64,000 nucleotides of DNA, from contig NC_026655.2 in assembly GCF_000004075.3 (NCBI RefSeq), forward strand, positions 1,178,001 to 1,242,000, read 5' to 3'. Below the pieces are notes generated by a model. It worked only from the letters and a program-made list of their open reading frames with translations, was not told where the DNA came from and ran no database searches. Source of the stretch: Cucumis sativus (lineage: Eukaryota; Streptophyta; Magnoliopsida; Cucurbitales; Cucurbitaceae). The translations under genes were made by a program, and so were the position numbers. This document shows, in pieces, positions 10,922 to 40,727 of the stretch; the stretch's first letter is position 1; the number at the start of each line of letters is the position of its first letter.

Positions 10922-13900
10922 ATGGCGATTTCCATTCCCACCCGGCAGCTATTCATCGACGGCGAGTGGAGGGAACCAGTTCTCAAGAAACGCATCCCCG
11001 TCATCAACCCCACTACTGAAGAAACAATCGGTCTCTTCTTCTCTTTTCTTTTACTAATTATGATTGTTCATTAATTTGCTTTGGGGATCAGAAGATAAGA
11101 CGATAGGAAGTTGTAAGTTGTTTGAGAATGGATTGTTTATAAGTGGGTTGAGTCTTACTTTTGTGTTACTTGACCAAATATGCTTCAGGATCTATTCCTG
11201 CTGCTACTGCTGAAGATGTAGAGTTAGCTGTTGATGCTGCTAGAAAAGCGCTGGCGAGGAATAAAGGCAAAGATTGGCGCTCTGCTTCGGGGGCTGTACG
11301 TGCCAAGTATTTGCGTGCTATTGCTGCCAAGGTCGGTGGGTTACATGGATGTCTTACTTTTATTTGATTGTGATTTGCTCTCTGTTTTCCTATTGGACTG
11401 ATGCTAAGGATCTTTGATGCTTTTGTTATTTGTGTATGATTTTAGTGGATTGAACCCATGAATTGGTTTCTGATGCGAATCTATAAAAAGTGAGAAATAT
11501 GGTGCCATCCATCTTCCCGTTATAGTTCATGGAAAAATCAGATATTAGGATGGAACCGTTTTATAGCTCTATATCTCGTCTTAGGAATGATACTTCATTG
11601 TAGTGAACTGCCCTAGCTTATTACAACATGGGGATTACTCACCTTGCACGAGTTCTATTTAAATTCATATTTATATTGTGAGAGTCGAAAAGTTTTAGTG
11701 ACTTTGGAAGTTATATCACGTATAAATTCAACTTTACTATCATGTTGAGGGATTCTTTTCTCCCATTGGATATGTTAAGCAGTTGGGTTGTTGTTGTTAT
11801 TATTATTTTGTTAAGTGTTAATGTCATCCATCCTGAACTCTGTTTGTTGTTTTCTCATAGATAACAGAGAGGAAATCGGAATTAGCAAAGCTTGAGGCAA
11901 TAGACTGTGGAAAACCTCTGGAAGAAGCTGCATGGGACATGGTATGGAAATTAATAAAAAGTTTAAAGATATGCATTGAATGTAACATTTTCATCACCAT
12001 CAATGTTTGTTGGTGTTGTACAGGACGATGTTGCTGGGTGCTTCGATTACTATGCAGATCTTGCTGAAGGATTGGATGCAAAGCAGAAAGCTCCTGTTGA
12101 TGTTCCCATGGATACATTCAAGAGCTATGTTCTAAAAGAACCTATTGGAGTTGTTGGGTTGATTACTCCCTGGTACTTGTTGCCTCTTACTGCTTTGATT
12201 CTTTTTTTAGTGGGGTTCTTTCTTGGCATAGCTTCTCAACTTTTGTTGGAATACTACACTTGTTATTATTTTTTAAATCATAGCCAATTACTGTCTCTCA
12301 ACTTTGAAACTGTTGATTCATTAACTTAAACATTAGGATATTAAATATTGCAATTTTTTCTTAAATATATATTACTTGGATTGATTTTTCAAATACAAGT
12401 AAATCTGTTGAGGTATTTGTTTAATTGTTATGTTTGTTCAACAAGTGTTTTATACATGTAGAACAAGGATTGAATGTTAGGTTGTCCAACATATGGTCCA
12501 ACAAGTCTCAAAATACTAGGACGTTCAATACTTGTTGATCGCAGATATGTTACCCAAACTTGAGTAACTCTGGTTCATAGTTTTCATTTTACCTTTAATT
12601 TGGACAAGAGTCATGCTTTGGGATGTTATTAGTTATTAACCTCCAGAGTCATATCTTGTTCTGCTCTCTTTTTTTGTTCTCTTTGTCTACCTTTATCATT
12701 GTTCTCAGTCTCTAGCATGGTGCTTATCTTAATTTTTGATAAGCTTTAAACTTTGCTGATGTCTATCTTTTATTGAAGGAACTATCCTCTATTGATGTGT
12801 GCATGGAAAGTTGCACCTGCCTTGGCTGCTGGATGTGCTGCAATTTTGAAGCCATCAGAACTTGCATCTGTGTAAGTGATTATGGATTTTATGAACTTTA
12901 TTTATTGTGATTTTTTAAAAAATGTTGTTACACAATACCTTTTTTTGGGCAGCACCTCTTTGGAACTGGCCGAAATATGTAAAGATGTTGGTCTTCCATC
13001 TGGAATTTTGAATGTTCTGACAGGATACGGCCCTGAAGCTGGTGCTCCTCTAGCATCTCATCCTCATGTCGACAAGGTATCGCTATCTCTATTGGCATCT
13101 ACTTGTATCCTTAAGGATAAATTGTTGTCTAACTAAAAAAGAGAATACTTGATGATAGGTTGCATTTACTGGGAGTAGTGCTACTGGAAGCAAGATTATG
13201 GCATCAGCTGCTCAACTTGTCAAGGTTGAATTTCAGCACAGTATACATTTACATTTGATTAGTAGAAGTTCTAAATTACCATTTGACTCACTTTCTCCTT
13301 GCCTGTTTTCTTTGGCAGCCTGTTACCATGGAACTTGGTGGAAAAAGTCCCATTGTTGTTTTTGATGATGTTGATCTTGACAAGGGTCAGTAACTTTAGA
13401 GCACATTTTTCTTATCATGGTCTTTAGTTTATCATGGTTGATAAAAGAAATTGCCCTTTGCAAAGCGAGCTACCTTGAAGCTTTTGAATTGGATCTGTGC
13501 TGTTTGTGGTTTTGATATTATTAACTGTTTTTCTTTTCCTATGATTTATAGCTGCCGAATGGGCAATATTTGGTTGCTTTTGGACAAATGGTCAGATTTG
13601 CAGTGCCACATCCCGTCTACTTGTACACGTATGTAGAAATCTAGATGTTTCTTACAGTATGAAATTAAGTATATTTATTTCTATCAAATACGATCATTCT
13701 CTCCTCCTAACTGTCCCATGGATATAGACACTTTATTTTTGGTAGTATCTTTTGGGTTCAATGGAGCAGACGATTTTGTCCTAACCCAGGAAAGGATAAT
13801 TGTGTTCAAGGCCATCTCGTAGAAAAATTTTCTGACTTAGTTAATAAGCTAAGCATTTTTATTCTTTCTTTTTCAAGTTTTATATTTGTTTCTTCTATCT

Positions 13901-15509
13901 GTTATTTCAGGAAAACATTGCTGATGAATTCTTGGATAAGATCGTGCAATGGTGCAAGAACATTAAGATTTCAGATCCTTTAGAAGAAGGTTGCAGACTT
14001 GGCCCTGTTGTTAGTGCAGGACAGGTGAGGGGGATATGTTTCTACATTTCTTGAGTTCTGTATGACAAAGAAAAGAACAATTCACTGTCACTCATAGTTT
14101 ATGGACATGGACATTTGGTAATAATAGGACAGAACACCTGGAAGGGCTATCTTTTTCAAGGAATATATGCTCATATATTAATATATTTCATAGCCTACAA
14201 ATTGTGCTTTTCTAAAAAGTAAACCCATGAAAGGTTAGGGATAAGTTAAAGAATGCAACTCATGCAATTCACACCGGCTTAAATTATTATATTTACCCTA
14301 TTGTTTGATTCTTTAGCTAATTTTTGGTGTAAAATTCAGTATGAGAAAGTATTGAAGTTTGTCTCAACTGCTGAGCAAGAAGGTGCAAAGATTCTATATG
14401 GTGGAGTTCGCCCTAAGGTACAATTAAGTTTTTTTCTCATCAAATTTACTCCTTTTCTTTTTTGTTTAACTAGAACTAACTAAAATGTGTCACTACTATG
14501 TTTAGCACCTAAAGAAGGGATACTTCGTTGAACCAGCCATTATTACTAATGTTACAACCTCCATGCAAATATGGAAAGAAGAAGTCTTTGGACCTGTTCT
14601 ATGTGTAAAGACTTTTAGTTCTGAAGATGAAGCTATTGAATTAGCAAATGATACAATGTAAGTAAAATTCTCCCACTTAGTTTATGCTGGAAACCGTTTC
14701 CTGACGTTCAGTTGATCTTTTGCAGATATGGGCTAGGTGCTGCTGTAATATCAAACGATTTAGAAAGGTGTGACCGTGTAGCCAAGGTGAGGATTGGAAT
14801 TATCAAGCACCTATATGGCATACGCAAACGAGAAACCTCTGAATTTCTGATCACTTCGTGTTTCCTTATTTCTTCCCAACAGGCTTTTCAGGCAGGAATT
14901 GTGTGGATTAATTGCTCGCAACCATGCTTCACTCAAGCCCCATGGGGAGGCATCAAACGGAGTGGCTTTGGTCGAGAGCTAGGGGAATGGTATATTTCCA
15001 TTTTATACTAAAAACTGCTAGATAATCTACTCAAGGTTAATTTAAAGATACCTAAAAAGAAGTTCAATTAAGAAGCTTTTTTGGTGGATTCCCAAAGCGT
15101 TCATTTAGTCTAAATCTCTGTCTGACTTATCTTTTAAGACATAAAAAGATTTAGCTGTTTGGGAATATAATCTTTATTCTTGTCTCTACTTTCCAAACCT
15201 ATTAATTTTAAACAAGTTTGAGCCTATATAAAAAACGAAAAATTGAAGATTCTATTCCACGAAGCACGTTTTTGGGAAGTTAAGAAACATAGGTTTATGT
15301 TGAAATAGCTTTGAACATGATTTTTCAAACAACTCATGCATCCTCATTGGTCAGTATCTTAACATTTGAATCAGCAGCACATGTACTGACTATCTAATTT
15401 TTTTTGTTCAATCAACAGGGGACTTGATACTTATCTGACTGTAAAGCAGGTTACTCAATACATATCCGATGAACCATGGGGATGGTACAAATCTCCTTCT
15501 AAACTGTAA
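10922..15509 (+). CDS. ALDH10: ALDH10-family aminoaldehyde / betaine aldehyde dehydrogenase, peroxisomal
   Basis: Fifteen exons: 10922-11030, 11189-11331, 11861-11941, 12024-12172, 12779-12871, 12953-13076, 13159-13224, 13319-13385, 13552-13628, 13911-14024, 14340-14417, 14506-14657, 14726-14786, 14883-14989 and 15419-15509. They give 503 residues, the normal length. The start [19 protein letters not shown] matches plant homologues; an in-frame ATG at 10889 would add 11 residues but is less typical. The catalytic residues are Glu260 (MELGGKSP) and Cys294 ([10 protein letters not shown]). The substrate-pocket tryptophans Trp288 and Trp459 are present. The protein ends SPSKL, a type-1 peroxisomal signal. 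The enzyme oxidises aminoaldehydes such as 3-aminopropanal and 4-aminobutanal from polyamine breakdown with NAD+. The position equivalent to spinach Ala441 is Ile444, which argues against efficient betaine-aldehyde oxidation. Loss of ALDH10 in rice and cucumber gives 2-acetyl-1-pyrroline fragrance; no break is seen here. Confidence 0.96.
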
Positions 15510-17760
15510 AAGAAACGACCCCTCTGATTCAGAATAAGCACTTCTCGTCTACTACCAAGTCTACGCGGGAGAATAAAGTTGGGTGAAGAAATTCTTGCAC
15601 AAGTAGTTCTGTCCTGTGAGTTTTCTGTTTAGTTCAGTTAGTTTGTGGTTAAGAACTCAATTCAATTTACTTCAAACATTAGATACTATGATTGTGAGTC
15701 AATAGAAAATGGAGTGAGTTGTTGGTAGCCTGAAAAAAGGAATTACTGTATGATAGAATCTGACCTTTGTATGAATTCAGGCACTTTCTTTCAGTCTTCT
15801 TCTATCATTCTCAAATCTTGGCTTTGAAACTATGAGGAAGAACATGGATTCCTTCTCTAGTATTAATTGCCTAAATGGGATTCTACGATGAACCCTAATC
15901 TTTTTGGTCAATTTAGTAGATCTCGACCACCCTTTTCCAATTCAAAATTCATAAATCTATTGAAAATCAATTTTAAATGCTATTAAACATCATAAAGATA
16001 CAAATTTGAAACTTTTGACAACTGTTTTACACAATTATTGAATCTTGGCTGATTCTTGAGAATGATAATAAATAAATAAAAGATGATAATGAAAGGAATA
16101 AACAGAAGTTAAAATAAGAAAGAGATCTCTCTGGTTCCTATGTTGTCAAGCAACTTGTTTATGGGTAATCTCATTCTTTCAACTCAAAATAATATAAAAT
16201 GTATATTATAAGCAACCATCCCAACAATTTGATTAAATTAAAAATTTGATCAAGTTATATATTAGTAGAAATATAGTTGAAAAAATCTTCATAAATACTT
16301 GATTGGATTTGGGTAGATACTAAATTCTAAGTTTCTTCAAGCTTATCAAATGTTGTAGTTTATCTTCTTCGTTGCCGAATTGAGCTTTGTTCAATAATAA
16401 ATCAATATAACTTTTAAGTCTCGATTTTCTACCTCACTAATTAGTTATTTCACTAAAGAAGCTTTTTTATCTTTTCAATGAGAGATAGACAACTTCTTTC
16501 AAGGAGGGATAAGCAAAGAACCATCAAAATCAGTTACTCCATCACCTTCTCATCTTAGATAAAAGGAAAAATATTTGAAAAAAACATTTAACCCTTACGG
16601 ACGTTTGACCTCCAAATTAGAGTGGATGCGTAAAAGAACTCACTCATTATTTGGTTCATTAATAATTAAAAGAGTGATTACCTCGTTATTCACATTACCT
16701 TCTTTAATTATTTTATTCTATAATATTTACCAACTCAATTCATCTAAACTAAACGTTCCATAGAAATTCAAAGATGCACTAGTCCGACAAGCTTATTCTT
16801 TCAAGTGCCTCTTTCTCGTTAAACAGGAAATTGACTCTTTTCTATTCAGTCTTTTTGAAGGAAACAACATTATAATTAGTGTATTTGATAATGACAGTTT
16901 AACAAATCACTGCAATAAAAGCAAGAAAGAACCACAAATCTGTCTGATATTTCTCCTTCAAATTCCCTCTTTCCAAACACAAATGATGTCTTTTCTTATC
17001 CCATCATTCTTTGTCCAAGAAAAGTTCAAAAATATTCACTAAATTATCACAAATGCAACATATTAAGGCAACCCAAATACTCAAAAACAAAAAAGGAAAG
17101 CCTAAAGATGCGTTACAGTACGAAAATTTTATTTGTTCTATAGAATATTTAGTTTTTTTTTCTTGATGGGGTATGATATAATCATGAGATGGGTAAAATT
17201 TTTATGCATAGGAACCTTCAACCGACAAATTCAGAAAGTTGAGTGTGAAATTGGTTTTGACTGAAGTATGGGCCAACATTATCCTTGATGATGGGACAGG
17301 CCAATTCAATTTCACTGCTTAATTCTGCCATTATTTCCCACTGGCTGAGTATCCATAAATCTCTCTTTCTTCCTCCTCAAAAACGTGGGAAGTGAGAGAT
17401 GGAAAGTTGATTTTTCAGGCTGGAATTGTCCTGTCATCGTAAGAAACTGGCAAAGTAACTGCATTAATTCACATCTCGTATTTCTTCTTTGAAATCAGGT
17501 CACTGTTTGTTTCGCTTCGTTTGTTTGTTTGTTTGGTTGAATTTTTCATTGGGTTTCTCTCTGAATTTAGAGATCTTGTTCACAAAACATTATTACCATT
17601 TCTGGGTTGTGTATATTTCGCGCCAAATTAATTACCCATTTATGTAGATTTCTGATTATTCATTTCTTACATCGAGAAATCGCAGTTTATTTCGAGGGAT
17701 TCTTGATTTTGAGATTAGTTCATTGGTGGGTTTTGGGATCTGGGTTTGCTTCGATTAACG
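15510..17760. other. Spacer between ALDH10 and the KONJAC1-like gene
   Basis: The first few hundred bases are probably ALDH10 3' UTR. From about 17,230 the composition changes, and 17,460-17,760 reads as the pyrimidine-rich leader of the next gene. No independent gene is supported; the open frames at 16575 and 17607 have no recognisable protein character. Confidence 0.55.
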
Positions 17761-20700
17761 ATGGGGAGCACAGAGGAGAAGGTTGTAGCTGTGATCATGG
17801 TCGGCGGTCCCACTAAAGGTATATGAAATTTCTTATTTCTTCCTATTTTGTTTTGGAGGGAAGTTTGTTTGATGCATTTACATTCAAATCTGACTTCATT
17901 TTAGCTTCTTCTTCCAGCAAAACTTGATTCTGTTTCTCTGATTCTATCTGGGGTTCATAGAATCCAGCTTTTGTTCATAGGACAAGAATCATATTCTTCA
18001 AATATCTAGTTCGTATTTTGGTTGGGTTTTTTGCTCATTCTAGTCTTCGTAATGAACAGGAACTAGATTTCGACCTCTGTCATTGAATATTCCCAAGCCT
18101 CTTTTTCCTTTGGCTGGACAACCAATGGTGCATCACCCAATTTCAGCTTGTAAAAGGGTATGTGTTCATGAAATCTTAATGGAATAAGCTGTCATTTGAT
18201 TGTTGAATGGACACTCTGTTTATCAAACTGATGTAGTTTCTGTTTTGTTTTTTTACAGATTCCAAATCTGGCTCAGATTTTTCTTGTTGGTTTCTATGAG
18301 GAGCGTGAATTTGCATTATATTTATCTTCCATTTCTAATGAACTGAAAGTTCCTATTAGGTAGCCATTTCCTTTCAAAGTCTACACCAAGTTGTGTTTAT
18401 TTCTCATTTTTTATTGTGTTTGTTGTTGAATTGCTGTGATATTGTGTGTGGTGATTAGATATTTGAAGGAACAGAAACCACATGGTTCTGCTGGTGGACT
18501 TTTTCACTTCAGAGATCTTATCATGGAAGACAGTCCGGTTTTCGTCTCACCTTTTCTTCTCCAATTTTGTCTATTAAGTTGATTCATCAATGTCTTTAGA
18601 TCTCCTAATGTTTCTATAATCTTGTTTTCAGTCACATATCTTCTTGCTGAATTGTGACGTTTGCTCGAGTTTTCCACTCCCGAAAATGCTAGGTAGCTGT
18701 ACTCCTTTTCTTTGATTCAATCTTTTGTTCCCCTTCCCCAACATGCCGGTACTACGTTCGAGTTAAGGTTGATTCTCATGTAAGAAACAGTTGCAATGGT
18801 TGCCTTAATAGGTTCTTTACCATTAATAAGATTGATGTGCTACAGATGCTCACAAAAGTTATGGAGGGATGGGAACAATCCTCGTAATCAGAGTAAGTAA
18901 TCACGCCCTAGCTCTTAAGCTGGATTCTTTAAAGTTCAATGCCTCCGATTCCAGGTTATTGGTTCTTCTTCAATGTTGTCCTTCATCCTTGTTTTGTTTT
19001 TAGGTATCAGCTGAGGCAGCTCACCAGTTTGGAGAGTTGATTGCGGATCCAATAACAAACGAACTACTTCACTATGCGGAAAAACCCGAAACTTTTGTAT
19101 GCTAACTAAAAAAAACATTCAACTTCAGCACTACTACTTCTCTTTTGATTGGATTTTCAATTGTGTTCCTCTGCTTTTATCTTCCAAAACAGGTCAGTGA
19201 TCTCATTAACTGTGGTGTCTACATATTTACACCAGACATATTTTCCACAATTCAAGGTGTTTCGACGCAGCGGAAAGAGAGAGGTGAGTAATAGTCACAT
19301 GAAAATTATGATTAAGATGATTTCAAATTGCTGTAGTTATACAATAATGAAGTCAATTTATTTGAAGCAATTTCCACTATTGGCTTGATTTTCAAAGGGG
19401 GGAGAAAACTCTTTCTTCAACTGCATCACCATATTATAGATAGTTTATTGTCCATTCTCAATTATATCTTATTTTGCAGCAAATTTGAGCCGATTGTCTA
19501 GCTTTGAAGCCCTCCAGTCTGCTACAACAAGGTTGGATGGATCCTTCTCTTTTATGTTGAAATTTTGTATTTAGATTTGGTGCAGACACTTCGAAGCTGC
19601 ATATAAAAATCAGTGTCTTTCAGATTGCTCGATATCTAAAATTACTAATAATATAAAGTTCGATAACAGGAGCTTGCCTAAAGACTACGTAAGATTGGAT
19701 CAAGACATTCTATCACCTTTTGCGGGTAAGAAACAGTTATATACGTATGAAACGATGGACTACTGGGAACAAATCAAAACGCCTGCGTAAGTACTACATC
19801 CACTCTTTTAACTTATAAGCTTTGTTTGCAACCGTTTAAAAATTTATACACATCTTTCCGTGTAAAATTTTGCAGAATGTCGTTGAAATGCTCTGGCTTA
19901 TATCTTGCTCAATTCCGGGTCACCTCCTCCAACCTATTGGCAAGTGGAGATGGTATGAAAAATGCTATCATCATCGGTGACGTTTATATTCATCCTTCAG
20001 CTAAAGTACATCCAACTGCCAAGGTCACCTTCTAAATCTCAAGCCGTAAATATGATATTTTCTAGCCAAAATGATTATTGTACAGGACTTACAAATTTCA
20101 ATGACTCTAATTTTAGTCCCTTGTTGTTCTTCTACTTTCATTCAAATTAAACTTGTATATTGGCTTTTCTCTTCTATGCCGTTATACAGATTGGTCCGAA
20201 TGTCTCAATATCGGCTAATGCTCGAATTGGAGCTGGTTCTAGGCTCATTAGTTGTATCATCCTTGATGATGTTGAAATTAAGGTATGGATTTATCTGTTT
20301 GCAGAAAATTTGGACTCGGACTAGAAGTTTATTTGTTATTATTTTTTTGGCTTGTCAGGATAATGCAGTTGTCATACATGCAATTGTTGGATGGAAATCG
20401 TCTATTGGTCGATGGTCTCGAGTACAGGTAAGTCGACAAATGAGCCCTTTTTCTTTTTTCTTTGGTTCCAATTTTTATCAACAACATTACTTAAGTTAGT
20501 CATTTTAATTATTTTTGTCAACCTTCTATGCTACTTTCTAGGCTGATGGAGATTACAATGCAAAGCGGGGAATTACGATTCTAGGTCTTACTCTTTACCC
20601 GTTTATGCCTTTTATTTTCTTCTAAAAAAAAAAGAGACAAATGCTTTTCTTTCCCTCTCGAGAAGCGCCACACAGCTGCGGTTCTAATATGACAAACATC

Positions 20701-20816
20701 GGTTTTATTATCCAGGTGAAGCAGTCGTGGTTGAGGATGAAGTAGTTGTGACAAACAGTATTGTTCTCCCAAACAAGACTCTTAATGTGAGTGTTCAAGA
20801 GGAAATAATTCTATGA
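17761..20816 (+). CDS. KJC1: GDP-mannose pyrophosphorylase-like regulatory subunit (GMPPA / KONJAC1 type)
   Basis: Fifteen exons: 17761-17818, 18060-18157, 18259-18359, 18459-18537, 18632-18692, 18846-18892, 19004-19096, 19193-19283, 19480-19531, 19670-19786, 19876-20023, 20190-20282, 20359-20427, 20542-20584 and 20716-20816. They give 416 residues. The N-terminal nucleotidyltransferase domain starts [20 protein letters not shown] and includes the [11 protein letters not shown] block. Residues of the second half form a left-handed beta-helix with hexapeptide repeats ([20 protein letters not shown]). The two-residue insertion in the nucleotide-binding loop (GGPTKGTRFRPL) is typical of GMPPA-type proteins rather than the catalytic VTC1 type. 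Arabidopsis KONJAC1 stimulates VTC1 and supports glucomannan synthesis; a cytosolic regulatory role in GDP-mannose supply is inferred. The end [10 protein letters not shown] matches the family. Confidence 0.94.
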
Positions 20817-21284
20817 AAAAACCTTTCTTTAAAAGAAAAAGTTCAGTACATTTTTGTGTCATATTACCCTCCTTGTTGTTCTAGAAAAAAACACACGTGG
20901 AATCGTCAAAAGTCCACGACGACTTCTGTAAATTGAGATCTATTTAAAATTGGCTACTGCTTTGATTCAATTTTGCAAAATACAGACAATAACTACATAT
21001 TTTGTAGATAAACTAGCTATTCCAAGTCATTTGTAAGTGCAACTATCTTACAATGGTAGTATAATACACCATGACGATGGCTTCCGGAGATCGGAGTTGG
21101 CACAGCCAACGTATAAGGACCCTATGGCTTCAAAAATTAGTTCATCAAAAGAATGACTTGAATGCTATACTTAGATGTTGGTTAACAAGAGATTCCAAGC
21201 TACAAAAGAAAAAGAAGAAAAAATTCATCCAAAGGATGACTCCAATGCTACACTTAATAGATTTTGGTTGTCAAGAATTATGCT
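20817..21284. other. Tail-to-tail spacer between KONJAC1-like and DEL genes
   Basis: Only 468 bp separate the two stop codons, so the 3' UTRs lie very close and may overlap. It has no ORF with protein character; an A-rich stretch lies near 21,205-21,222. Confidence 0.6.
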
Positions 21285-23387: not shown

Positions 23388-26265
23388 AGGTAAGGTTGGT
23401 TTATGTGAAGGGGGAGATGGAAGTGGCGAAGGAAGAGATTTGTGGAGTTGGAGTTGGATTTGGAGAATTGGAGGGAATGGTTTGAAGATTTAAACAAAAG
23501 ATTTGAAGAACCGTTGAGAGAGGGAGGGAGGGAGCGTGATTCAAGTTCAAGTTCAAGTTCAAGTTCCACACAACAGGCGCGTTATCGTTTTTTTCTTCTT
23601 TTCTCTTTTCAAATTTTATTACCCATTGACCGTTTTGCCCTTTCGCCCTCGTTTCATTTTAAAATTTTCTAGGGAGTTTGTAAAAATAGCAAAGAAAAAT
23701 TATAATATTAGAGTTCATATTACTTTGCATTTTCAAAATTGCAAAAATAAAAGTTTAAAAAATAGATTATATGGTCATATTTACCAAATTTTTTTGTCAT
23801 TTAAGTAAAAAATAATTCAATTTTCATTTCGTTTCTCTTTAATTCAAAATTAGACATTTTTAAAATTCATCCAACTCTTAAAAAAATAGGTTTAAAAAAG
23901 TTAGATTTTGTTTTTAGAATTTTGGTGAAAATTCAATTAAGATATAAAAGGTAAAGGTAAAGTGGCTTGTTTTATAATAAAAATCTAAAAGGTTATTGAA
24001 TTCAACTTTAAATTTTTGATTTTATTTTATCCTTCAATTTTGAGGTTTGTTTTACTTTAAATTTCTAATGATTTAGATTTATATTTTTTTTAAAAAAAAA
24101 CAAGCTTTAAAATATGAGGTTGTTTCGGTAATAGAAAAAAAAAAAGTATCCTTCATACAAAAAATCACTAAAAACTAAATTTTAATTATACTTTTTTTTC
24201 TACAACGAACAAATAATTCGTCAATTTAACAACTTTCTCTTAAAAAACAATTATAAATTGAAACTTAATTACAATTCTTTTATTTTTAACAATAAACTCT
24301 TTGCACAATCACTTTTCTCTCTAAAACTTTTCTTCTTTATTAAAAATTTGTTCAAGTATAATTATTTATTTCTACTAACATAATTCGTAACTATACCTTG
24401 TGAACACAAACTTATGTAATTTTTATTTTATGATATTATTCTAATAAAAATGTTTCGTGTTTCCAAGAAGTATATTGAGAATTTGCTTTCTTCTATGGAT
24501 TAATCGATTCCCAAAGTTATTTTTTTTTCTATTTTTCACAAAATAATTTTATTTTTCGCTTTTTTTGAAGATATTAAAATAGTAAGTAGTGGACTGCTTT
24601 TACTAATTTCCATTACTTTGTTGTTTCTTCTGCTTTTGTTGAGATCCGATAATTATAATAAATTTAATAATGAGTATTTTATTGGTAAATATCTCTTTAT
24701 TTCTTTCCCCAATGGATTTTATATTATTGGAAGTCAATAGAGATTCAAATTAGAATAATGTGAAATTTTATCAATAAGATATCCAAATATCTAAAGATAT
24801 GTTTTGGAAAAGAAAAACATTCTAATAATTAAGTGGAGAATGAGGTAACAAAAATATAGTTATTCAGATTTGGTATATATTTTATGAATCTTTGGGATTT
24901 CTTTATATATACACACATATATACATACATATTAAATTAACATAATGTGGTTCTATTAAGTTATTCATGTGCTGAAATAATAATTTTAAAAATGATATCA
25001 AAAGAGAATCTGATTTAATACTTTAAATTGTGTTAAAATATAAACTTCTTCATATAATTTAGTAAAATTTAATATTTAATTGATGGTTTATAAATATTGA
25101 CAGACATTTTCTAAGGTGAGTTTTATATATAGAAAAAATAATGATTAAATTTTAACTTTAATTGCAAAGGCTAAATTTTGTTGATTTTGTAATTTAATCT
25201 TACACTAACTAAACCAAAATTAAATGAAAAGACATATATCATACTTTCAAATCTTTTGCTTATGTTTGTTTTGTCCTCTCAATTTGGAAGAATAGTTAAT
25301 CTTCATTATTCACCTTAATTTTGATTTGGTTCAATTTTAGTTCTACACTTTTAATAAGTCTTAAAAGGTTTTTTTAGAAATTACTATTGAGACATTTTTA
25401 AAAATAACAAAATAAATTAAAATATTTATCCGCTTATCAAATTTTTGAATTTTATATAGTCACTAATAGACTTCTATCCCTCGGTACTATCAATGTCACT
25501 GTGGTTATTAATGTCTATTATTGATAAAATCTACAAACATTGTTATATTTGGTAACATTCCATCAAATTTACTATTTTGACAATTTTTCTTACTATTATT
25601 ATTATTTAACTATTTTCATAAAATTCAACTTTGAGAGGAACTTTTATTTGACTAAACTTGAAAAACTTGGATAAACTATGTTATAACATTAAACTAGCAA
25701 TAGCTAGTTAAGATGTTGTAAATTAAAGTCGAAGAAACTTTTTTCATCGTGTTAGGACAAGAAACCGTAATAATATAATATTGTCTACTTTAGATATACA
25801 CTCTTATGACTTTGCACCGTAATAATATAATATTGTCTACTTTAGATATACACTCTTATGACTTTGCTTTTAGTATCATCCAAAGCACCCCATACCAATA
25901 GAAATAGTCGTCCTCACTCATAACCGATGGTCGCATTACAAATCCGAATTTGGCTAAAGATGAGTTAACCAATTGAGAATAAACCGACACAATTATAAAA
26001 AACCAGAATTTTTGGACTCAATTAAAAAAGTAAACTTGATGATAAAAAATTGGTTCATTTGTTTGTAACAATTTTTTTATATAATTATCAATTTTGTTTG
26101 CTAAATAATTGATAAGATCGAGATTGAAACCTAAGTTTTAATTTGTAGAAAGTAAGTTTACCCATTGTTACTCTTTCAAAAGTTCTCAAATCTATTAGAT
26201 AACAAAATGTTGTGATATTCATAAATATTTTATAAAATTTTCGTTGCTATTAAAAACAATTTTCT
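23388..26265. other. Spacer upstream of DEL, repeat-bearing
   Basis: The first ~270 bases are the DEL promoter/leader, including a GTTCAA-type hexamer run near 23,540-23,563. Beyond is low-complexity AT-rich DNA with a palindromic-family repeat copy at about 25388-25590 and an exact 52-bp tandem duplication at 25764-25867. No gene is supported. Confidence 0.55.
25764..25867. repeat. Exact tandem duplication, 2 x 52 bp
   Basis: The unit beginning ACCGTAATAATATAATATTG occurs at 25764-25815 and again, with no mismatch seen, at 25816-25867. Perfect identity in non-coding DNA suggests a recent duplication by slippage or unequal crossing-over. Confidence 0.95.
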
Positions 26266-26641: not shown

Positions 26642-26714
<73 letters not shown>

Positions 26715-26946
26715 ATATCGAATCCCTAAATCTCCTAATTTATTTCAATTTCAAACACAGAAGAAATGAAATCGGATTTGACGGTTCACGCAAATAGATA
26801 ATTTTCTTTTTTGTCTTTGATTCGATTCAGAAATTAGAATCAACAATCACCTGCTAATGCTACGCTCTGCTGCCGATGAATCGTTCTTCGGATTCCGTGC
26901 TGCTGCCATTGGCCATTGGGCGGCTTTCCTTTTTCGCTGCCGCCAT
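26266..26946 (-). other. Candidate minus-strand transcript with two short ORFs
   Basis: This ~680-bp island stands out from the AT-rich surroundings. On the minus strand, 26946-26860 encodes a 28-residue GC-rich ORF (MAAAKKESRPMANGSSTESE...) from an ATG in AAAATGGCGG context. A plausible splice donor (AGCAG|GTGATT) follows near 26850. After the AT microsatellite, a second ORF at 26373-26266 encodes 35 residues starting MADQCYLVHPYGSF. I recognise neither peptide. It could be a leader with upstream ORFs, a spliced non-coding RNA, or a decayed gene. Confidence 0.35.
26646..26703. repeat. (AT)n microsatellite, about 29 units
   Basis: This is an uninterrupted AT dinucleotide run, followed by a short imperfect extension (TTTATATATATAAT). 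It lies inside the putative minus-strand transcript island. Such length is usually highly polymorphic. Confidence 0.97.
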
Positions 26947-29067: not shown

Positions 29068-29070
<3 letters not shown>

Positions 29071-29076
29071 CTCCCC

Positions 29077-30332
29077 ATGGCGACGGTTCCTGATCTCTTC
29101 CGCCGCAACGGACTTGTTGGGTTTTCCGACGAGTCGAAACAGAGGAGTTCCGGTTCCACTCAGCTTCATGTTCTTGCTGTTGATGATAGTTTTGTTGATC
29201 GGAAGGTTATTGAGCGGTTGTTGAAGAGTTCGTCATGTGAAGGTATAGATTGTTGTCGATGATTGTTTTTGTTTAATGCGTTGATTTTCGATGGGGTTTG
29301 TTTGAATTGGATTTGGTTTTTTTTGTTCTTTTTCTTTTGCAGTGACTGTTGTTGAGAGTGGGAGAAGTGCTCTTCAGTATTTGGGTTTGGATGGGGAAAC
29401 TAACTCTGTTCAGTTTAGTAGTGTAAGAAAATTTTCCCTTCATTTTAGTAATTGTTTGTTTAAGTCGAAATGTTGTTTGATCTTGAATTGATGATTAGTT
29501 GTTGGGTTTTGTGTTGATTTATTGCTTTCAGGCTTTGAAGGTGAATCTCATTATTACAGATTACTCCATGCCTGAAATGACAGGATATGAACTGCTCAAG
29601 AAGATCAAGGTTGGTTTCTTGGTTGATTGGCTTGTTTTTTGTTCTTCTCACTCTTTCTAAAATAAATTGGTTCTTAGTTTTTGAAAGTTTCGTCCACTTC
29701 TAGATTTGTTGCTTTGTTACCCACTTGTTACCCAAGTTGAAGGAAAAAAAACAAGCCAAAGTTTTGTTCTTCCAATTTGGCTAAGAATGAACTCTGTTAG
29801 TAAACCATTGTATGAAAATTGAGAGATACTGCACTTCGTATGTTATATCAATGGCTGAAAGAGGATTGTTATGAACAGGAATCATCAGCTTTCAGGGAGA
29901 TTCCTGTTGTGATAATGTCATCAGAGAATATTATGGCTCGTATCGACAGGTATAGATACATTCTCCCTTCTCTCTTGTTCTTGGATTTACTTTTTCATGG
30001 TTAACTTTAAAGCTGAAGAATTGGGGTTTCATTTTTCTTATAGTTGTTTAAAGGAAGGGGCTGAAGAATTCATAGTAAAGCCAGTGAAACTGTCTGATGT
30101 GAAACGATTGAAAGATTTCATTATGGAAGGAGAAAATGGAGGGAAGAAAATTGATCTTAAGAGGAAACTCCATCTCAATCATGATCACAACCCATTGTCT
30201 CCAGCCTCTCCAACGCCGTCGATGACAGCGTTCGACCAATGCCAAGGATTCAAGCAACGATCACCACCGTCGTTACGACCGTCCTCGATCATACATTCAT
30301 CAAAGAAACCTAGGTTCCTCAATGGCAACTAA
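29077..30332 (+). CDS. Type-A two-component response regulator (ARR5/ARR15-like), cytokinin signalling
   Basis: Five exons: 29077-29242, 29343-29422, 29532-29609, 29879-29949 and 30044-30332. They give 227 residues. A receiver domain covers about residues 29-155: acidic pair Asp36-Asp37 ([12 protein letters not shown]), phospho-acceptor Asp92 ([20 protein letters not shown]), Ser/Thr switch in VVIMSSEN, and Lys144 ([13 protein letters not shown]). A short Ser/Pro/basic tail follows, without a GARP/Myb DNA-binding domain, which makes it type-A. Type-A regulators are rapidly induced by cytokinin and dampen the histidine-kinase/phosphotransfer pathway, competing with type-B regulators. Exon 5 begins so that the residue before CLKEGAEEF is Ser rather than the common Arg. 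Its position between DEL and EDS1 agrees with ARR5 (next to EDS1 in Arabidopsis) and ARR15; the subgroup assignment rests on that context. Confidence 0.95.
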
Positions 30333-31823: not shown

Positions 31824-31831
31824 TATAAATA
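31824..31831 (+). promoter_or_regulatory. TATA box of the LAP5/PKSB-like gene
   Basis: TATAAATA lies 69 nt upstream of the ATG at 31893, leaving room for a short ~35-nt leader. Confidence 0.65.
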
Positions 31832-31892
31832 GCAATGTTATCCTGGCAAATTGCAAAGAATCAATTGATTCCTAGGTTTCTTTGGAAAAGTA

Positions 31893-33340
31893 ATGAAAGA
31901 GATGGAAAACAGAAATGGTGCACAAGAAGCTTCCAAGGGAAAGGCCAACCCTGGAAAAGCTACGATTTTGGCTCTTGGGAAAGCATTCCCTCCTCAACTT
32001 GTCCTTCAAGACTACCTAGTCGACGGCTATTTCAAGGACACAAGCTGCGATGATATTGATCTCAAGCAGAAACTCACTCGACTATGTAATTTTAATCTTT
32101 CACTCTTTCTTCTTTTTTTTGGAAATATCTCATACTTCATTGATCTGAAAGAACTGAATGGAACTTCTAAGATGGTTTTAAAAAAAATTTACAAGTGCAT
32201 TAGAGTACTACTTCTCCTTTTTAACTGAATTAATCGTCATCCTCTAATAGTGTAAATCCTTTAACAGGCAAGACAACAACAGTAAAAACTAGATACGTGG
32301 TGATGTCAGAAGAGATCTTGAAGAAGTACCCAGAGCTAGCAAAGGAAGGTCAACCGACCATAAAGCAGAGACTGGAGATTTGCAACAAAGCTGTGACAGA
32401 AATGGCCATTGAAGCTTCACAAGCTGCCATTAACAACTGGGGAAGGCCAGCTTCAGACATTACCCACTTAGTCTATGTTTCTTCAAGTGAAGCTCGCTTG
32501 CCTGGTGGTGATCTCTTCCTAGCAAGGGGCCTTGGACTCAGCCCTCAAACCCAACGAGTCATGCTTTACTTCACGGGTTGCTCGGGAGGCGTGGCAGGCC
32601 TTAGAGTCGCAAAAGACTTAGCTGAAAACAACCCAGGAAGCCGAGTCCTGCTTGTCACCTCTGAAACCACCATTATCGGGTAACTCTTTTAATCACCTCC
32701 TAAAGCTCATACATGCTGTTCTCAGAATTTTAAACATAAACACCAATTTCTTTACAGCTTCAAGCCACCGAGTGTAAATCGTCCATACGATCTCGTAGGC
32801 GTGGCACTATTTGGGGATGGTGCAGGGGCGATGGTAATTGGGAGAGACCCTTTTTTGGGCATTGAACGACCACTCTTTGAACTCCACACAACAACCCAGA
32901 AATTCATTCCAGATACTCAGAACATAATCGATGGGAAACTGTCGGAGGAAGGTATTAGTTTCACAATAACAAGAGAACTTCCTCAGATAATTGAAGACAA
33001 CATCGAAAGTTTCTGTGAGACATTTCTTCAAACACTTGGGTTACATGAGAAAGAATACAACAAAATATTCTGGGCAGTACATCCAGGTGGGCCAGCGATA
33101 TTGAACAGGTTGGAGAAGAGGCTAGAACTGTTACCTGAGAAGCTGACAGCGAGCCGACGAGCTCTGATGGACTATGGAAATGCGAGTAGTAACACGATCG
33201 TGTACGTATTGGAATACATGATGGAAGAAAGCTTGAAAATGAAGATGGAAGGTAGGAAAATTGAGGAATGGGGATTGATTCTGGCGTTTGGACCTGGGAT
33301 TTCATTTGAAGGGATTCTGGCGAGGAATCTTGCCGTATGA
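31893..33340 (+). CDS. LAP5: Type III polyketide synthase, LAP5/PKSB type (sporopollenin biosynthesis)
   Basis: Three exons: 31893-32085, 32268-32679 and 32758-33340. They give 395 residues, the usual type III PKS length. Catalytic triad by count: Cys169 (MLYFTGCSGGVAGLRVAKD), His310 (FWAVHPGGPAIL) and Asn343 (DYGNASSNT); the C-terminal GPG motif is in LAFGPGISFEG. The N-terminal blocks NPGKATILALGKAFP and LTRLCKTTTVKTRYVVMSEE, and the block VYVSSSEARLPGGDL, match Arabidopsis PKSB/LAP5 better than PKSA/LAP6 or chalcone synthase. The enzyme condenses fatty acyl-CoA starters with malonyl-CoA to hydroxyalkyl alpha-pyrones, precursors of the pollen exine, in the tapetum. The first ATG was used; an in-frame ATG at 31902 would remove three residues. 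Its Arabidopsis counterpart (At4g34850) is not in the syntenic block, so it is an intruder between the response regulator and EDS1. Confidence 0.95.
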
Positions 33341-34634
33341 GAAAAATGATAGAGTTGATGCTTACTATGAATATGAAATTTTCAATTTCTATTGTGTGTT
33401 AGTTTTTAGAAATGTTGAATGGAATGATTTGTTTTGGTCTCTACGTTGTTATCATCCACCAAGCTTTTTGTATATTATAATTAGGATAATTATAAATAAC
33501 AATTTTAAGAATAATGATAACAAAATCTATTGGTAATAACTTCCCACAATTTTTTTTAAATATAACAATCTTAATTATTCCTTTAATTTTAAAATATTAA
33601 GTCTATAGAATAAAACTAAACAACTCATTTTAGCACTATACATCAATTTTCAAAAAGTTATATAGTTAGTCACTAATGTTGTAATTTTATCTTTGTTTCA
33701 ATTTAATTCTTAGTTTCGATTTTCATTAAATACCAATTAATAGACATTAATGTCTATTAATTGATTTAAAATAGTTGTGAAGTGATGATTGAAATTTAGT
33801 TTTAATAGTGATACATAAATAATCAAACTTAATTAATCATACTCTTTTAGGATGGAAGGTGAGTATTTAGCTGATGTTAAACCTTAAAATGTAAATCTTG
33901 AAAAATCAAAACAAAAACAAAAAAATGACTAAATTTAAACCAAACTTAGAAACTAAATAAAAATTAGATTTAAAGCTTAAAGACCATAATAAAACAAAAG
34001 TCAATAAAATTGTAACGGATTAAATTAAAAACAAACTCAAAATAAAAGTCTTGAATATTTAATATTTTGAAAAATGTGGACCAAATAAAAAGTTAACAGA
34101 GGTGTAAAAAAGGAAAAAAAATATTTATTCAACTCCGAACCATTAATTTTATCAATTTAGACCTTGTATTTTTACAAAAACATAAATATAAACTTCAAAT
34201 TTTAATTTAAGTTTTAAATTGATACATTGAAGCAATAATTAATTTAAGATTTAAATTTATACAACATACAAAGTTTTATAATATAAATATTTGTATATGG
34301 AAAAAAAAAACCAAAAACTTATTGGTGGAAAAGGAATTATAATTTTAGGAAAAGCAATTCCCGAAGACGCAAACTCTCACATGTGAAAGTGAAACAAACA
34401 AACAAAGTTGGAAAGTTCGTAGATATTGAAACTTTGATTCCTTGACAAACCACTTATATTAAATTTCTTGGAAAAGCACTGCCCAATCCAAAACTACTTT
34501 TCCAAACGGAAAGACGACAACCAATGATTAACAATTCCATAATATACAATCTTTTGTATCATAAATTATGAAGACCAAGACGTAGACTCAGAGCCAAAAG
34601 AGCAGAGAACCATAATCGGAGCTAAGGGAAAAAG
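33341..34634. other. Spacer / EDS1 promoter region
   Basis: AT-rich, with remnants of a common dispersed motif (AACTAAATTTAAACC-like) around 33,900-34,260. The last ~250 bases, including a purine-rich leader, belong to the EDS1 upstream region. No gene is seen. Confidence 0.5.
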
Positions 34635-37600
34635 ATGGCTCACCTGAAGCTTGAAGGCGCCATTAATTTGAAGGAAGATCTCATCGCAACCGCTTGCTCT
34701 GCCGCCATTAAAGCTCACAAGCATCCTGAGAAGCCATTTCTTCTTGATAAAACTAGAGATTCCTCCATCATTAGCTTCGCCGGATCTTCGTCGCCGGAAG
34801 CCTGGTTCTCTGCTTCCGATTCGTCTTTTGGAGAAACCAAAATCGATACTCAGCTGTTTCCGTCAGTCAGGAGCATCGGCGTCGATGATTATGCCGTCGT
34901 CAATTCCGCATTTCTTCGGAGATTCCAGGGGATTTTGGGGAAGCTTAAGGAGGTACCATTACTATTATTTGCCCTAATTTGGTACTTTTTATTCTTCACA
35001 TTTGCTTTCTTAAGTTATTTATTTACTTTCTTCAATAAATTTTGGCTAATCTAATTATATATTTTAATCTCAAATTTTCTATTTAATAATTTTCCAAAGT
35101 ATTCTTTTATACTTTTTCTCATTTCAGTTGGAGTAATGATAAGTTTCAAATGCAAACTTAATAAATGCTCTTAATTTGATTCACTTAGGGGAAATGGAGT
35201 TCCATGAAAATAATTTTAAGTCCCACAAGGTTTGTTATATACTTACTCGTAGAAGTTTAAGATGATGATAAATTTAGATATTTCATTAAAATTAAAGTTA
35301 AAGATGACTCTGCGTTCAAAATTTTAAATAATATGATCTAAATTGAAAAAAAAAAAATCAAGTTTAGAGTGTTAACACTGTTATAAATATTCTATTATAA
35401 ATTGCAATAAAAAGCATTTTTGTATGGGTAGACTAATAATCGAGTAAGGAAACATGACCTATACAAATATATTTTCAAATTTTAGGATGAAAAAAGAAAA
35501 ATTATTATAAATAATAAAACTGGAAGTCACTCAAAATATATTTTGATTTATATATTTTGATTCAATCTAAACAGACCATCAATCCAAATAGCCCTCAATA
35601 ATCACCAAGAGGGTTGCTATATTTTGTATTTGAAAATCGTCTTGAGATAACGAATAGATAACAAGTAGTTTTATTTTAAAAAACAACAATAAATAGGCTT
35701 TCTTGAAAAATATAGGACAAAAATTAGATATTTGAAGGTATGAACACAAAAAGTTGAATAAAATTTTGCTTTGACATTTTTGCAATGCTATGATTACAAC
35801 AAAGATGATTAGGTATCGTACTCCATATTTAGAAATTGCATTATTTCCCTATGCAATTTCAATAAATCCAGGCTTCCAACAAAACCCTATCACTTCTCTT
35901 AACTATTGAGGGATTTCGTTTTCTCAGGTTCTGAGAGTGAACAAGTCTGTGGTGTTTACCGGCCACTCAGCCGGAGGTTCGATAGCCATTCTTGCAACCA
36001 TCTGGCTGTTGGAACAGCAAAGAAACCCAGACTCAAACCCATACACCAACTTCACTCCTACATGTATCACATTTGGATCTCCCCTTGTTGGTAACTTCAT
36101 TTTCTACCATGCTCTCAAAAGGGAGAAATGGTCCACCCAATTTGTGCACTTTGTCACCAGATACGACATCGTTCCACGAATCCATCTTGCTCCTCTGTCA
36201 TCCTTACAACCACAACTACAAACCATCCTCAACTGCCTGAACTCGAGATCACTTGGGTCAACAGTGAATGGAAACGTAGCTACCGAATTCTTTATGACGG
36301 TGATGAGGAATGCATCGGCTGTGGTAAGCAACGCTGCATGTCGTCTCATGGGAAACACTAACCTTTTGCTAGACACATTGCAAAGCTTTGTGAAATTGAG
36401 TCCTTATAGCCCTTTTGGCACATACATTTTCTTCACTGAGAGTGAGAAAGCGGTGGTGGTGACCAACCCAGATGCTGTTTTACAAATACTATTCTATGCT
36501 TGTCAGTTGAGCTCTGAGAGCGAATGTGATCACATTGCTCAACAGAGTTTAAAGGCCCATTGGGGTTATGAATCTAAAATGCAGCAAAACTTGGAGCTAC
36601 TGCATGCCATTCGCCTAGATGAATTGGCTAAGCTGCCATTGTCCTTAACAGGCAGGAACACGGCAATAACTGAAGCATTGAATGAACTTGGCCTAGTAAG
36701 TTCTCTAATCTTCTTGCTCTCTCCATCTTTATCTCTCATATTATATTCTTCGACTCCTATACCTAAGAAGACAAATACACATGAAATATAGATACAATAA
36801 AATACACCCAATGTTCAATGCACCAAATCACATTATGAAAAGTATCTAAAAGTATCAATACTGATTTTTTGCCTTACCTAAAGGATAAGGTATCCCTAAC
36901 GGGACTTGGTACAATGAACTCTAACCATCAAATGTGAAATTACAGAGTACAAGAGCTTTATTGAATCTTCGGGCAGCAGGCGCATATGAAGAGCAGAAAA
37001 CGAGAAATAAAGAAAGGATGGAAGTAAAGAAACAGAATATCGAGGATCATTTGAATTGGCTAGAAGTAGATTACAGAGCTGTTTGTAAGGTTGATGGTTT
37101 CGGATACTATGATGTATTTAAACTCCAGAAGGATCCAATAGATTTCCAAGCTAATATCAAGAGACTTGAACTAGCAGGTATATGGGATGAGACTGTAGAA
37201 ATGCTCAAAAGATACGAGCTCCCAGAGGAATTTGAGGGCGACGATGAATGGATAAAACTCGGAACCAGGTTTCGCCGTCTTGTTGAGCCTCTAGATATTG
37301 CTAACTACTATAGACATTCAAAGAATGATGACACTGGTCCTTATCTGATAAAAGGAAGGCCGAAACGTTACAGATTTACACAAAGATGGCTTGAGCATAA
37401 TAAAAAAATGTCAGATCCTAGTGAAGAATCAACTCTTTGGGCAAAAGTAGAGGAGATCCGTATCAAAACCAAAACCAAAATGTACGCTGAATGTTCAAGA
37501 GAAATTATAGAGCTGGAGAGGAAGATGAAGCGATGGATCAATGAGATTGAAGATGATATGTTGTTAAAGAAATCTACCTTCATGGAGTGGTGGAAGACAC

Positions 37601-37686
37601 TTCCTGAGCATCATAGATCACAGTCTTGTATTAAGGATGACATCGAGAGGATGGTGAATGACAACAATGCCACTAACACAATGTAG
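34635..37686 (+). CDS. EDS1: EDS1, lipase-like immune regulator of TIR-NLR signalling
   Basis: Three exons: 34635-34952, 35928-36695 and 36946-37686. They give 608 residues, against 623 in Arabidopsis. The N-terminal alpha/beta-hydrolase fold carries the lipase-type nucleophile elbow FTGHSAGGS with Ser120, Asp186 (RYDIVPRIHLAP) and His317 (KAHWGY), so the catalytic-type triad is intact. The C-terminal EP domain (about 363-608) contains RLVEPLDIANYYRHSKNDDT then GPYLIKGRPKRY; the family's KNEDT motif appears as KNDDT (488-492). EDS1 forms heterodimers with PAD4 or SAG101 that bind TIR-made nucleotides and activate helper NLRs, driving salicylate-linked and cell-death defence in nucleus and cytoplasm. 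Lipase activity is not needed in Arabidopsis. Intron 1 is unusually long here (975 nt) and AT-rich. Only one EDS1 copy is seen in the window. Confidence 0.97.
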
Positions 37687-39386
37687 TCCAACATTAATAA
37701 GCCATTGTACTTGAAAAAGACAATGACATTCCAACAGCATCCCTTCTGTTTGTATGAATAATCAGAACTTATTTAAAAAATGTCCCTAATGTAATGAACA
37801 TGTTCTGAAACAATTTCGCTACCAATTTTATAATAGTGTTGAGGCTATCAACAAGATAATCAACAAGCACTAACCTTGTAAACTCTGACAGAAACGGCCA
37901 ACCACCTGTGCTGACGGGCAGAGGCCTCGTTCATGGTCCATGGAGATAAACCTTAAGAAAAAAGTACGACAAATATAGAATAGAATAACCATTTAAAACA
38001 GCAGACATAAATTTGAGCATGTTTGGAATGACCTTTAAAGAGCTACAGAAGGGGTATCCAAGCACTAAGATAATCAATCCAAACTCCATGAATCCAATCT
38101 CCAATCTGTTCATTTACAGAAATTGTAATAGTTTCCAATAGAGACCACCAATCAACAATCAATATTTTCTAAATAACTTGCACCGAGTAAGTCAATATCA
38201 ATAGCAAATGAGTAGAGTAGGACCTCATTGAAAGGAAGGAAGATCACCAATGGCCTAATGAATACATGATGTACAAGCTCAAATGGTGAACGTTATTCCT
38301 GTGAAGGATCAACCAATTACATAAACTATGAGAAACTCGTCGTCCATGTCCTGCCCTGCCACTGCCAGTGAAGTACAGACGAATGGTCTGACCAAAATCG
38401 ACGTTGCATTTTCACCATCCAAGGAAAACTGCCGGCTAAATCACTGTCTTTCAAGCTTAGATCACAGTTTCTTTATTGTCTCTTTCATGGAGACAAACAT
38501 TTTTTTAAGAACTGTTTTATTCAATTTGAAAAGTCATATGTAAAGACACATATGAGAGACACAGGAGTCCATCTTTAAAGCATAAGAAGCATCATAAAAA
38601 GGAACACCCACCCCCACCACACACAAACACACGAAATCTCTTCCAATAAGAAGAATCAAGGCAAAGGTAAGGCTGCAAAGTTAAAACAGGCCAAAACCAA
38701 AAAGTTAAAATAAGGGGTTTCCAATCATTGGACATTAAAGAGTCATTTTAAATGACGAAGATGTGTTAAGATGTATCAAACTATAGATTCTTCAATATCA
38801 AACCATGCTCACTGTTAACTCTTGAGAAAATGTTATTTTACATGTATGTTGCATTCAAGGTACACAGTCATAAAAACCTAATTAGCCTATATGTCTAAAC
38901 TCTAAAAAGCAACACAAATTGAGATTTACTTAGGCTGATTTCAAACTTCTTATCCCAAAATAAACAAGCAAAAAGACTTATGTAACATACAATTTATTGG
39001 CAAATACATGAACTCAGACAGACAGAGGAACGTGATAAGTAGAACAGTTTCAGCATATATGCAAATACAAATAAATAAGTGGAAAAACCAAACGTTGTTT
39101 CATTATTCCATGTATTCATTTCTATACCACCTCGTCTATTCACATATTAAGTACGAAATAGGTCCTCTACATTGGCAAATGTACGATAAGATAAGAACCA
39201 CACTCATGTACGAAACAGTTCAGTTTAAAGGTTCTCAATCTCATAACCATACTTCAACACCCAAATGCCACTTCTATTACTATGAAAATCAGAGCCCAAG
39301 ACTAGCATAATACCCAAGACGCAGGAACAAAAGGAAAAAAAAAAGTGAGACCAGACGTACATTAACTCACAGAAACTGAACACTAC
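37687..39386. other. Tail-to-tail spacer between EDS1 and RING gene with exon-like relics
   Basis: Includes the EDS1 3' UTR and the probable 3' UTR of the RING gene. Between about 37,860 and 38,480 the base composition is gene-like. On the minus strand 37,873-37,952 reads LSPWTMNEASARQHRWLAVS... flanked by an AAG acceptor and a GTTAGT donor, and 38,033-38,105 reads LEIGFMEFGLIILVLGYPFC. The pieces do not join into a complete protein and I do not recognise the family. A decayed gene or a non-coding transcript is possible. Confidence 0.35.
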
Positions 39387-40601
39387 CTAAGACCTTGAAA
39401 TCATGCTACAAGAACGAGCCAATGGTAACGTTGGGCTGCCAGCAAGTACGTTTGTTTCATTGTCGGCAGGATCACGATCATATGGCTTTCTGCAGCCAGG
39501 ACAGCGCCCATCCTCTTCAAGAATCCTCTTATGACAGAAAAGGCATAGTCGAAATCCACAGAAACAAGGTAAAAAACTTGAGTCTGTAAGGTCCAAGTCT
39601 TCAAAGCAAATTGGACAAGATGTAGGCACAGGAATAACACCACCACAGGCCCAAGAGACCCCTCCACATCCAAAACGCCGATCTGTAGTCGGTAAACTAA
39701 GCTGTTTTGATAACGTGGGCAAACTCTGAGGACGAAAGGCATCATCAGGCCTCCATGCTCGGCAATTCATCGAAGCCCTCTGCACTATTCTCCCACGCTC
39801 AACACTCGAGTCACCATCTCCTACGCCCAACTCGTTTCTTCTGTCTCCACAAGAATCCAATTGAGAAATAACATTGCCTCTGGGGGAAGACTCTGAACAT
39901 TGATCATGTTGCTTGTCAGTGGCGGCTAGGGCATCGGCAATAGCCTCCCAATCATCCAAGCAGTCATCATCTCCTTCTTCTTCTTCCTCCTCCTCCGTTA
40001 TACTCCCTGAGCGACAGCCACTAGAGCTGCTACGGCAGCTACTACTACTGCTACTCCCAGTAAAATGAGGACCCGAATCATTTCCACCCAATATACTACT
40101 GCCAAGACTAGGGGGGCTATTAGACGGTGAGTCCGAATAATCGCTATGGTGGTGGACCGATCTGTCATTCTCTTCTCCTATTTCCCTCATATTTATTTTT
40201 TCAGAGGAAAGGTCATCATCTTTCCTCGTTTTAATAACCACTGAATCCAGCCGATTGTCTTCCTCGTTCCATTTTTTGTTCTTTACAGCACCTATCACTC
40301 GTGAACCCAAATCGATTAAAAACAAATTCCCACATGCATCAATCCCGTTTCATAAACATCTTCAATCAAACAACAAATTCAAACATAATTAATGGTTATA
40401 CCTCGAGAAAGCCATTGTTCCCGACGAACGTCAAGCTTGGATTGCTTCAATTTTGAATTCCTAACCTGAAACCCCCAAAACAAAAACAATCACAACAAAT
40501 TACAAGAAACAAAAACAAAAACAATAAAATATCAACAAAAACAAACTCTACATCATTAAAATCAAAAGAGAAAAAAAATGAGAAGATTTACGTTTGAACA
40601 A

Positions 40602-40639
<38 letters not shown>

Positions 40640-40727
40640 TCCTCACCCTCTTCTTCTTGGGCAGGGGCAAATCCCGAGCGTTGGGTGCCAAAGAAATTGA
40701 AGCATTGGCGATCGAATCAGTAACCAT
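39387..40727 (-). CDS. RING-type (C4C4, CNOT4-like) zinc finger protein
   Basis: Three exons on the minus strand: 40727-40647, 40465-40402 and 40291-39387. They give 349 residues. The start MVTDSIANASISLAPNARDL is followed by a basic stretch (LPLPKKKRVRNSKLKQSK) that may be a nuclear signal. The middle is acidic and Ser-rich, with a TEEEEEEEGDDD run before DDWEAIADAL. The RING has eight cysteines (274, 277, 291, 293, 298, 301, 312, 315) with CPICFEDLDLTDSSFLPCFC and CPGCRKPY, the C4C4 pattern of CNOT4/NOT4. Proteins of this type are ubiquitin ligases; unlike true NOT4 there is no RRM domain, so membership in the CCR4-NOT complex cannot be assumed. Homologues flank EDS1 (At3g48070) and ARR15 (At1g74870) in Arabidopsis. 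Intron 1 holds a GA repeat just downstream of the donor. Confidence 0.92.
40603..40639. repeat. (GA)n microsatellite in intron 1 of the RING gene
   Basis: GAGA run on the plus strand (CTCT on the transcript), starting about 6 nt after the GTGAGG donor at 40646 on the minus strand. It resembles a polypyrimidine tract placed at the donor side, where it could influence splice-site use. Confidence 0.9.

Follow-up and report, generated by a model that had tools for sequence, protein, structure and literature searches.

A block of seven genes

We analyzed a window of 64,000 nucleotides of Cucumis sativus DNA (C1:1178001-1242000; contigs are given as C plus a number, and the cucumber genome assembly searched comprises 226,625,048 bases in 88 contigs). 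Positions 10922-40727 of this window, from the ATG of an ALDH10 gene through the ATG of a RING gene, make up a block of about 30 kb across which spliced gene models were built, and the proteins were then checked for Pfam families. The order is ALDH10 (+), KJC1/GMPPA-like (+, KJC1 hereafter), DEL (DP-E2F-like, -), a response regulator (RR, +), a type III polyketide synthase (PKS, +), EDS1 (+) and a zf-RING_4 RING gene (-). All seven genes are intact, with GT-AG introns and zero internal stops, and each of the seven falls in its expected family. An initial annotation, made from the sequence, had named these genes as consecutive, and the spliced models and Pfam families confirm all seven in the order it gave. 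Including TORTIFOLIA1-like (TOR1L), alpha-N-acetylglucosaminidase (NAGLU) and a small open reading frame (ORF) from elsewhere in the window, 9 of 10 submitted proteins had at least one Pfam family.

ALDH10 (10922-15509, +; Aldedh) has 15 exons and a coding sequence (CDS) of 1512 bp that encodes 503 amino acids. Its closest match in a library of solved structures is 3iwj, a putative aminoaldehyde dehydrogenase (2.7e-292) that we take to be the pea protein. The same exon number and CDS length are given for soybean GmBADH1, and the gene is close to the plant aminoaldehyde/betaine aldehyde dehydrogenases. KJC1 (17761-20816, +; NTP_transferase, GMPPB_C) has 15 exons and encodes 416 amino acids; the closest solved structure is 8yre_A (1e-210). 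It lies tail to tail with DEL (23387-21285, -), the 3′ ends being 469 bp apart. Two E2F_TDP stretches place two E2F winged-helix domains within the single DEL protein, in a model whose inner splice sites are partly ambiguous (720 compatible solutions).

The RR (29077-30332, +; Response_reg) has five exons and encodes 227 amino acids. Its solved-structure matches at ≤1e-10 number four, all CheY-like chains. We regard it as a putative type-A, ARR5/6/7/15-like regulator, based on presumed motifs, the short C-terminus and an ARR5-matched poplar gene in the same neighbourhood. The PKS (31893-33340, +; Chal_sti_synt_N and C) had 72 sequence matches at ≤1e-80, the best 60 of which are similar in score and mostly chalcone and stilbene synthases; a stricter search with the PKS returned zero matches. 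The name LAP5, as opposed to LAP6, is our assumption for this gene. EDS1 (34635-37686, +; Lipase_3, EDS1_EP; 608 amino acids) combines a lipase-like with an EP domain, and in the solved-structure library its matches to EDS1 chains outscore those to PAD4 and SAG101; it is EDS1. The block closes with the C4C4 RING gene (40727-39387, -; zf-RING_4; 349 amino acids).

Gene order in other eudicots

Locus numbers for poplar, soybean, grape and tomato were drawn from published papers; the literature used in this analysis includes PMC5344371, PMC7010635, PMC4409362, PMC5767954, PMC12906814, PMC4865519, PMC10235105, PMC8584571, PMC4916222, PMC4131832, PMC3648381, PMC9030070 and PMC12652587. In poplar, EDS1 (Potri.015G069600), RR10 (Potri.015G070000) and ALDH10 (Potri.015G070600, with a second copy at Potri.012G075600) are close by locus number and stand in the same order as in the window. 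RR10 is the sole ARR5-matched gene among the 11 type-A RRs of its table. Under random placement, the chance of the ALDH10-EDS1 linkage is approximately 0.003 (0.0029) and that of an RR between the two approximately 0.0002, both being rough figures with partly assumed copy numbers. Two pairs are likewise close by locus number: ALDH10 (Glyma06g19820) and EDS1 (Glyma06g19920) in soybean, and EDS1 (VIT_17s0000g07560) and a type-A RR (VIT_17s0000g07580) in grape. The passages available from cucurbit and Chinese cabbage two-component papers held no helpful gene positions.

As three gene types are ordered alike in poplar and recur as pairs in soybean and grape, the window keeps part of an old block. 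We consider it an ordinary copy, little affected by fractionation, of an ancestral block of the eudicots that was divided in Arabidopsis by loss after duplication, and give this a probability of about 0.83. The ancestral order would have been ALDH10 - KJC1 - DEL - type-A RR - EDS1 - RING. In Brassicales the beta genome duplication, followed by alpha, would have multiplied the block, and different copies would have lost different genes, leaving the Arabidopsis contents spread over what we take to be At1g74, At3g48, At5g62 and At1g19. That the copying began with beta, that Arabidopsis has four such segments and that KJC1 and DEL were neighbours in the ancestor are our inferences.

Several points weigh against this reading. 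The outgroup positions are locus numbers from papers rather than comparisons of outgroup DNA, and the grape RR is labelled type-A only, not ARR5-like. For KJC1, DEL and RING no outgroup position was found, and a literature search for KJC or DEL locus numbers yielded no paper. On the Arabidopsis side, the number of ARR5 comes from the literature, the gene order and all other numbers being presumed, and we know of no counterpart of the PKS in the Arabidopsis blocks. In tomato, EDS1 is Solyc06g071280 (the next locus, Solyc06g071290, is given only as “oxidoreductase activity”) and the RR labelled ARR5/7/15 is Solyc03g113720, on a different chromosome. Thus, the RR-EDS1 linkage is not universal, which could be explained by a lineage-specific duplication. 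Tomato ALDH10 is presumably Solyc03g113800, a number for which our literature search found no paper. The proposal of the initial annotation that the window keeps the union of genes before loss is largely supported by the locus numbers of ALDH10, RR and EDS1 in poplar and of the pairs in soybean and grape, but not by those of RR and EDS1 in tomato.

The tomato separation, together with outgroup placements that cover ALDH10, RR and EDS1 and none of KJC1, DEL and RING, would also suit a cluster that is secondary in the cucurbit lineage, in which a rearrangement joined unrelated genes and the order is not ancestral. We consider this improbable, given the shared order of the three genes in poplar and the close pairs in soybean and grape. 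Even less probable is that selection for co-regulation, here the control of growth and defence by EDS1, DEL and a cytokinin regulator, holds the genes together in place of chance survival. DEL1 and type-A RRs presumably act on growth and salicylate-dependent defence, for which EDS1 is, as we understand it, a hub; however, RR is separated from EDS1 in tomato and the block is presumably split in Arabidopsis.

The PKS between RR and EDS1, which the initial annotation saw as breaking the pattern, does not do so: it is an extra gene. Locus numbering leaves room between EDS1 and RR for about one locus in grape and about three in poplar, and the PKS may either have been inserted here or have been lost in Brassicales.

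Relation to the Arabidopsis segments

According to Kaltenegger et al. (2018; PMC5975490), ARR5/ARR6 and ARR7/ARR15 are pairs from the alpha duplication, and beta and gamma had a part in the expansion of the ARR5/6/7/15 clade. The same alpha pairs are given in PMC11523033. In the literature, ARR5 is AT3G48100. Thus, ARR5 and ARR15, which mark the two Arabidopsis blocks named in the initial annotation, are not alpha partners. The idea that these blocks are alpha copies of each other, which two Arabidopsis ALDH10 copies, presumably one per block, would suit, is contradicted for the RR genes and is the least credible of the alternatives. Judging from the RR alpha pairs, the two blocks are probably beta copies, for which four descendants are expected. 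We take the two missing descendants to be the ARR6 segment at At5g62 and the ARR7 segment at At1g19. The beta duplication is later than the split from cucurbits, so one cucurbit segment is expected against four in Arabidopsis. Where the initial annotation has two Arabidopsis blocks, the RR alpha pairs lead us to expect four descendants.

The surroundings of the block bear on the number of segments. Genes were predicted over C1:1.10-1.30 Mb, and the seven chosen from them all had a Pfam family (xanthine/uracil permease, PADRE, CBP60, U-box, MYB, transportin-3-like and bHLH). TOR1L (54999-57758, +) lies in the window outside the block. We take its counterpart to be At5g62580, and those of the transportin-3-like and bHLH genes, which lie beside the window, and of the permease gene to be At5g62600, At5g62610 and At5g62890, respectively. 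If these counterparts are right, a third Arabidopsis segment, presumably At5g62, seems to map here too. The MYB gene presumably corresponds to At1g74840/At1g19000.

At the left edge of the window is the C-terminal part of NAGLU (1-3005, +; NAGLU_C on the model 638-3005), whose start seems, according to longer models, to lie left of the window. A putative 5-formyltetrahydrofolate cyclo-ligase gene is also found in the region. The counterparts of these two genes we take to be At5g13690 and At5g13050, in the same part of chromosome 5 as SAG101. If so, they point to an additional source, as copying of this block in beta and alpha would not by itself account for them.

A possible sister segment around SAG101

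Three loci of the genome carry the EP domain (all four candidates scored), so that the EDS1 family is represented by EDS1 in the window and, elsewhere, by one SAG101 locus (C3:34210960) and one PAD4 locus (C4:20674018). A search with KJC1 (26 of 26 candidates scored) returned the window, C3:34155434-34159806 and C6:0.904 Mb, the last being a more distant relative with 34-36% identity. The C3 copy, KJC2, is the nearest KJC paralogue; in an alignment of 254 residues it has 190 in common with KJC1, and its distance to SAG101 is 51 kb. A GH38 gene, at one of three GH38 places in the genome, is 3 kb beyond KJC2 on the side away from SAG101, and a GASA gene, one of 13 GASA matches, is found on the side of SAG101 opposite to KJC2, at 6.3 kb from the EP match. 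GH38, KJC2, SAG101 and GASA all fall inside 70 kb (C3:34148324-34218055). The simple chance of each proximity is 0.0007-0.005, computed after the fact for pairs that had been chosen for testing.

The other DEL gene found is at C1:5.164 Mb (16 of 16 candidates scored, and 12 of 12 in a second search), far from SAG101 (C3:34.21 Mb) and PAD4 (C4:20.67 Mb), and a direct SAG101-DEL linkage was dropped on these grounds. The idea was taken up again after KJC2 was found 51 kb from SAG101. A different GASA gene lies at a distance of 47 kb from the second DEL gene (both in C1:5163570-5212370), and this pair may also be left over from the SAG101 segment. On C2, an E2F_TDP match lies 19 kb from a GASA gene (C2:19298003 and C2:19316911), which may be coincidence.

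In Arabidopsis we take GASA14 to be At5g14920, SAG101 At5g14930, GMII At5g14950 and DEL2 At5g14960. On this view GASA, SAG101, GMII, KJC2 and DEL2 would formerly have stood together on the SAG101 segment, in parallel to EDS1, KJC1 and DEL1 in the window. The evidence is suggestive, and we offer tentatively, at somewhat less than an even chance, that EDS1 and SAG101 sit on ancient sister segments, with KJC1/DEL1 on one and KJC2/DEL2 once on the other. The EDS1/SAG101 split would either have come with that duplication or go back to a tandem pair sorted by reciprocal loss afterwards. The divergence of EDS1 and SAG101, which share approximately 30 to 41% over the aligning stretches, far exceeds that of KJC1 and KJC2. 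This is consistent with rapid divergence or with sorting, by loss, of a tandem pair of earlier origin.

Other searches of the genome count against a large sister segment. No further pairs were found at C3:34 Mb for TOR1L (9 matches), CBP60 (31) or RING_4 (12). The nearest C3 match to the RR is 1.05 Mb away, and no aldehyde dehydrogenase there was seen among the 12 of 85 candidates that were scored. Conversely, neither GASA nor GH38 was found near the window. CNGC16 and CNGC18, which we take to be At3g48010 and At5g14870, would be a possible further pair; among 18 Ion_trans matches, one weak match (3.7e-4), a putative CNGC, lies at C3:34.344 Mb and none at C1:1.0-1.3 Mb.

Two other approaches were abandoned. 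A sister segment at the closest RR paralogue (C5:25.977 Mb) was rejected: when proteins predicted from C1:1.10-1.30 Mb with a score of at least 15, a set that did not include a correct DEL model, were compared with C5:25.95-25.99 Mb, only RR pieces matched, and whole-genome searches for DEL, KJC and the EP domain found nothing on C5. Synonymous dating of KJC1/KJC2 was given up with just four fourfold sites counted.

Other features of the window and its flanks

A lysine-rich ORF of 84 amino acids (6131-6385, +), which an open frame on the minus strand overlaps, had no Pfam match. The sequence between DEL and RR contains an AT dinucleotide array of 37 copies (26646-26718), and the intergenic stretch 25764-25867 consists of a 52-bp unit in two perfect tandem copies.

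A second aldehyde dehydrogenase gene, by guess of the ALDH2 type, lies approximately 150 kb left of ALDH10 (C1:1037454-1039198). Among the 12 of 85 candidates in the cucumber genome that were scored, none was a second ALDH10. Poplar ALDH2B genes are numbered close to the poplar ALDH10 genes. The CBP60-type calmodulin-binding domain has many clustered copies (C1:24113885-24326731, C5:9356357-9398110 and C78:63664-258536), with the C5 and C78 copies scoring identically.

Significance and comparison with known systems

A single undivided segment would account for the order seen across several segments in Arabidopsis. The plant immune lipase-like hub has three members, among them EDS1 and SAG101. 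Should the segments of these two prove to be true sisters, neighbouring genes, and KJC in particular, could be used to date the origin of both. Such dating would help to decide whether the two diverged after a genome duplication or descend from an older tandem pair that underwent reciprocal loss. The sister-segment idea matters more than the fractionation case itself and is worth pursuing. Tomato and the lack of further pairs leave fractionation of an ancestral block likely but short of certainty, and the sister segments below even odds.

Fractionation is a known process, of which the window, as we read it, is a clear case. After beta and alpha in Brassicales, the duplicates retain different subsets of genes, and the full set persists in a lineage that did not undergo these duplications; the window does not differ from this in kind and adds one more locus. 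Our reading shares with Kaltenegger et al. (2018; PMC5975490) the alpha pairs and the beta and gamma expansion of the RR clade. The parts of that study used here cover the RR genes, whereas the present block extends to their neighbours ALDH10, KJC1, DEL and EDS1.

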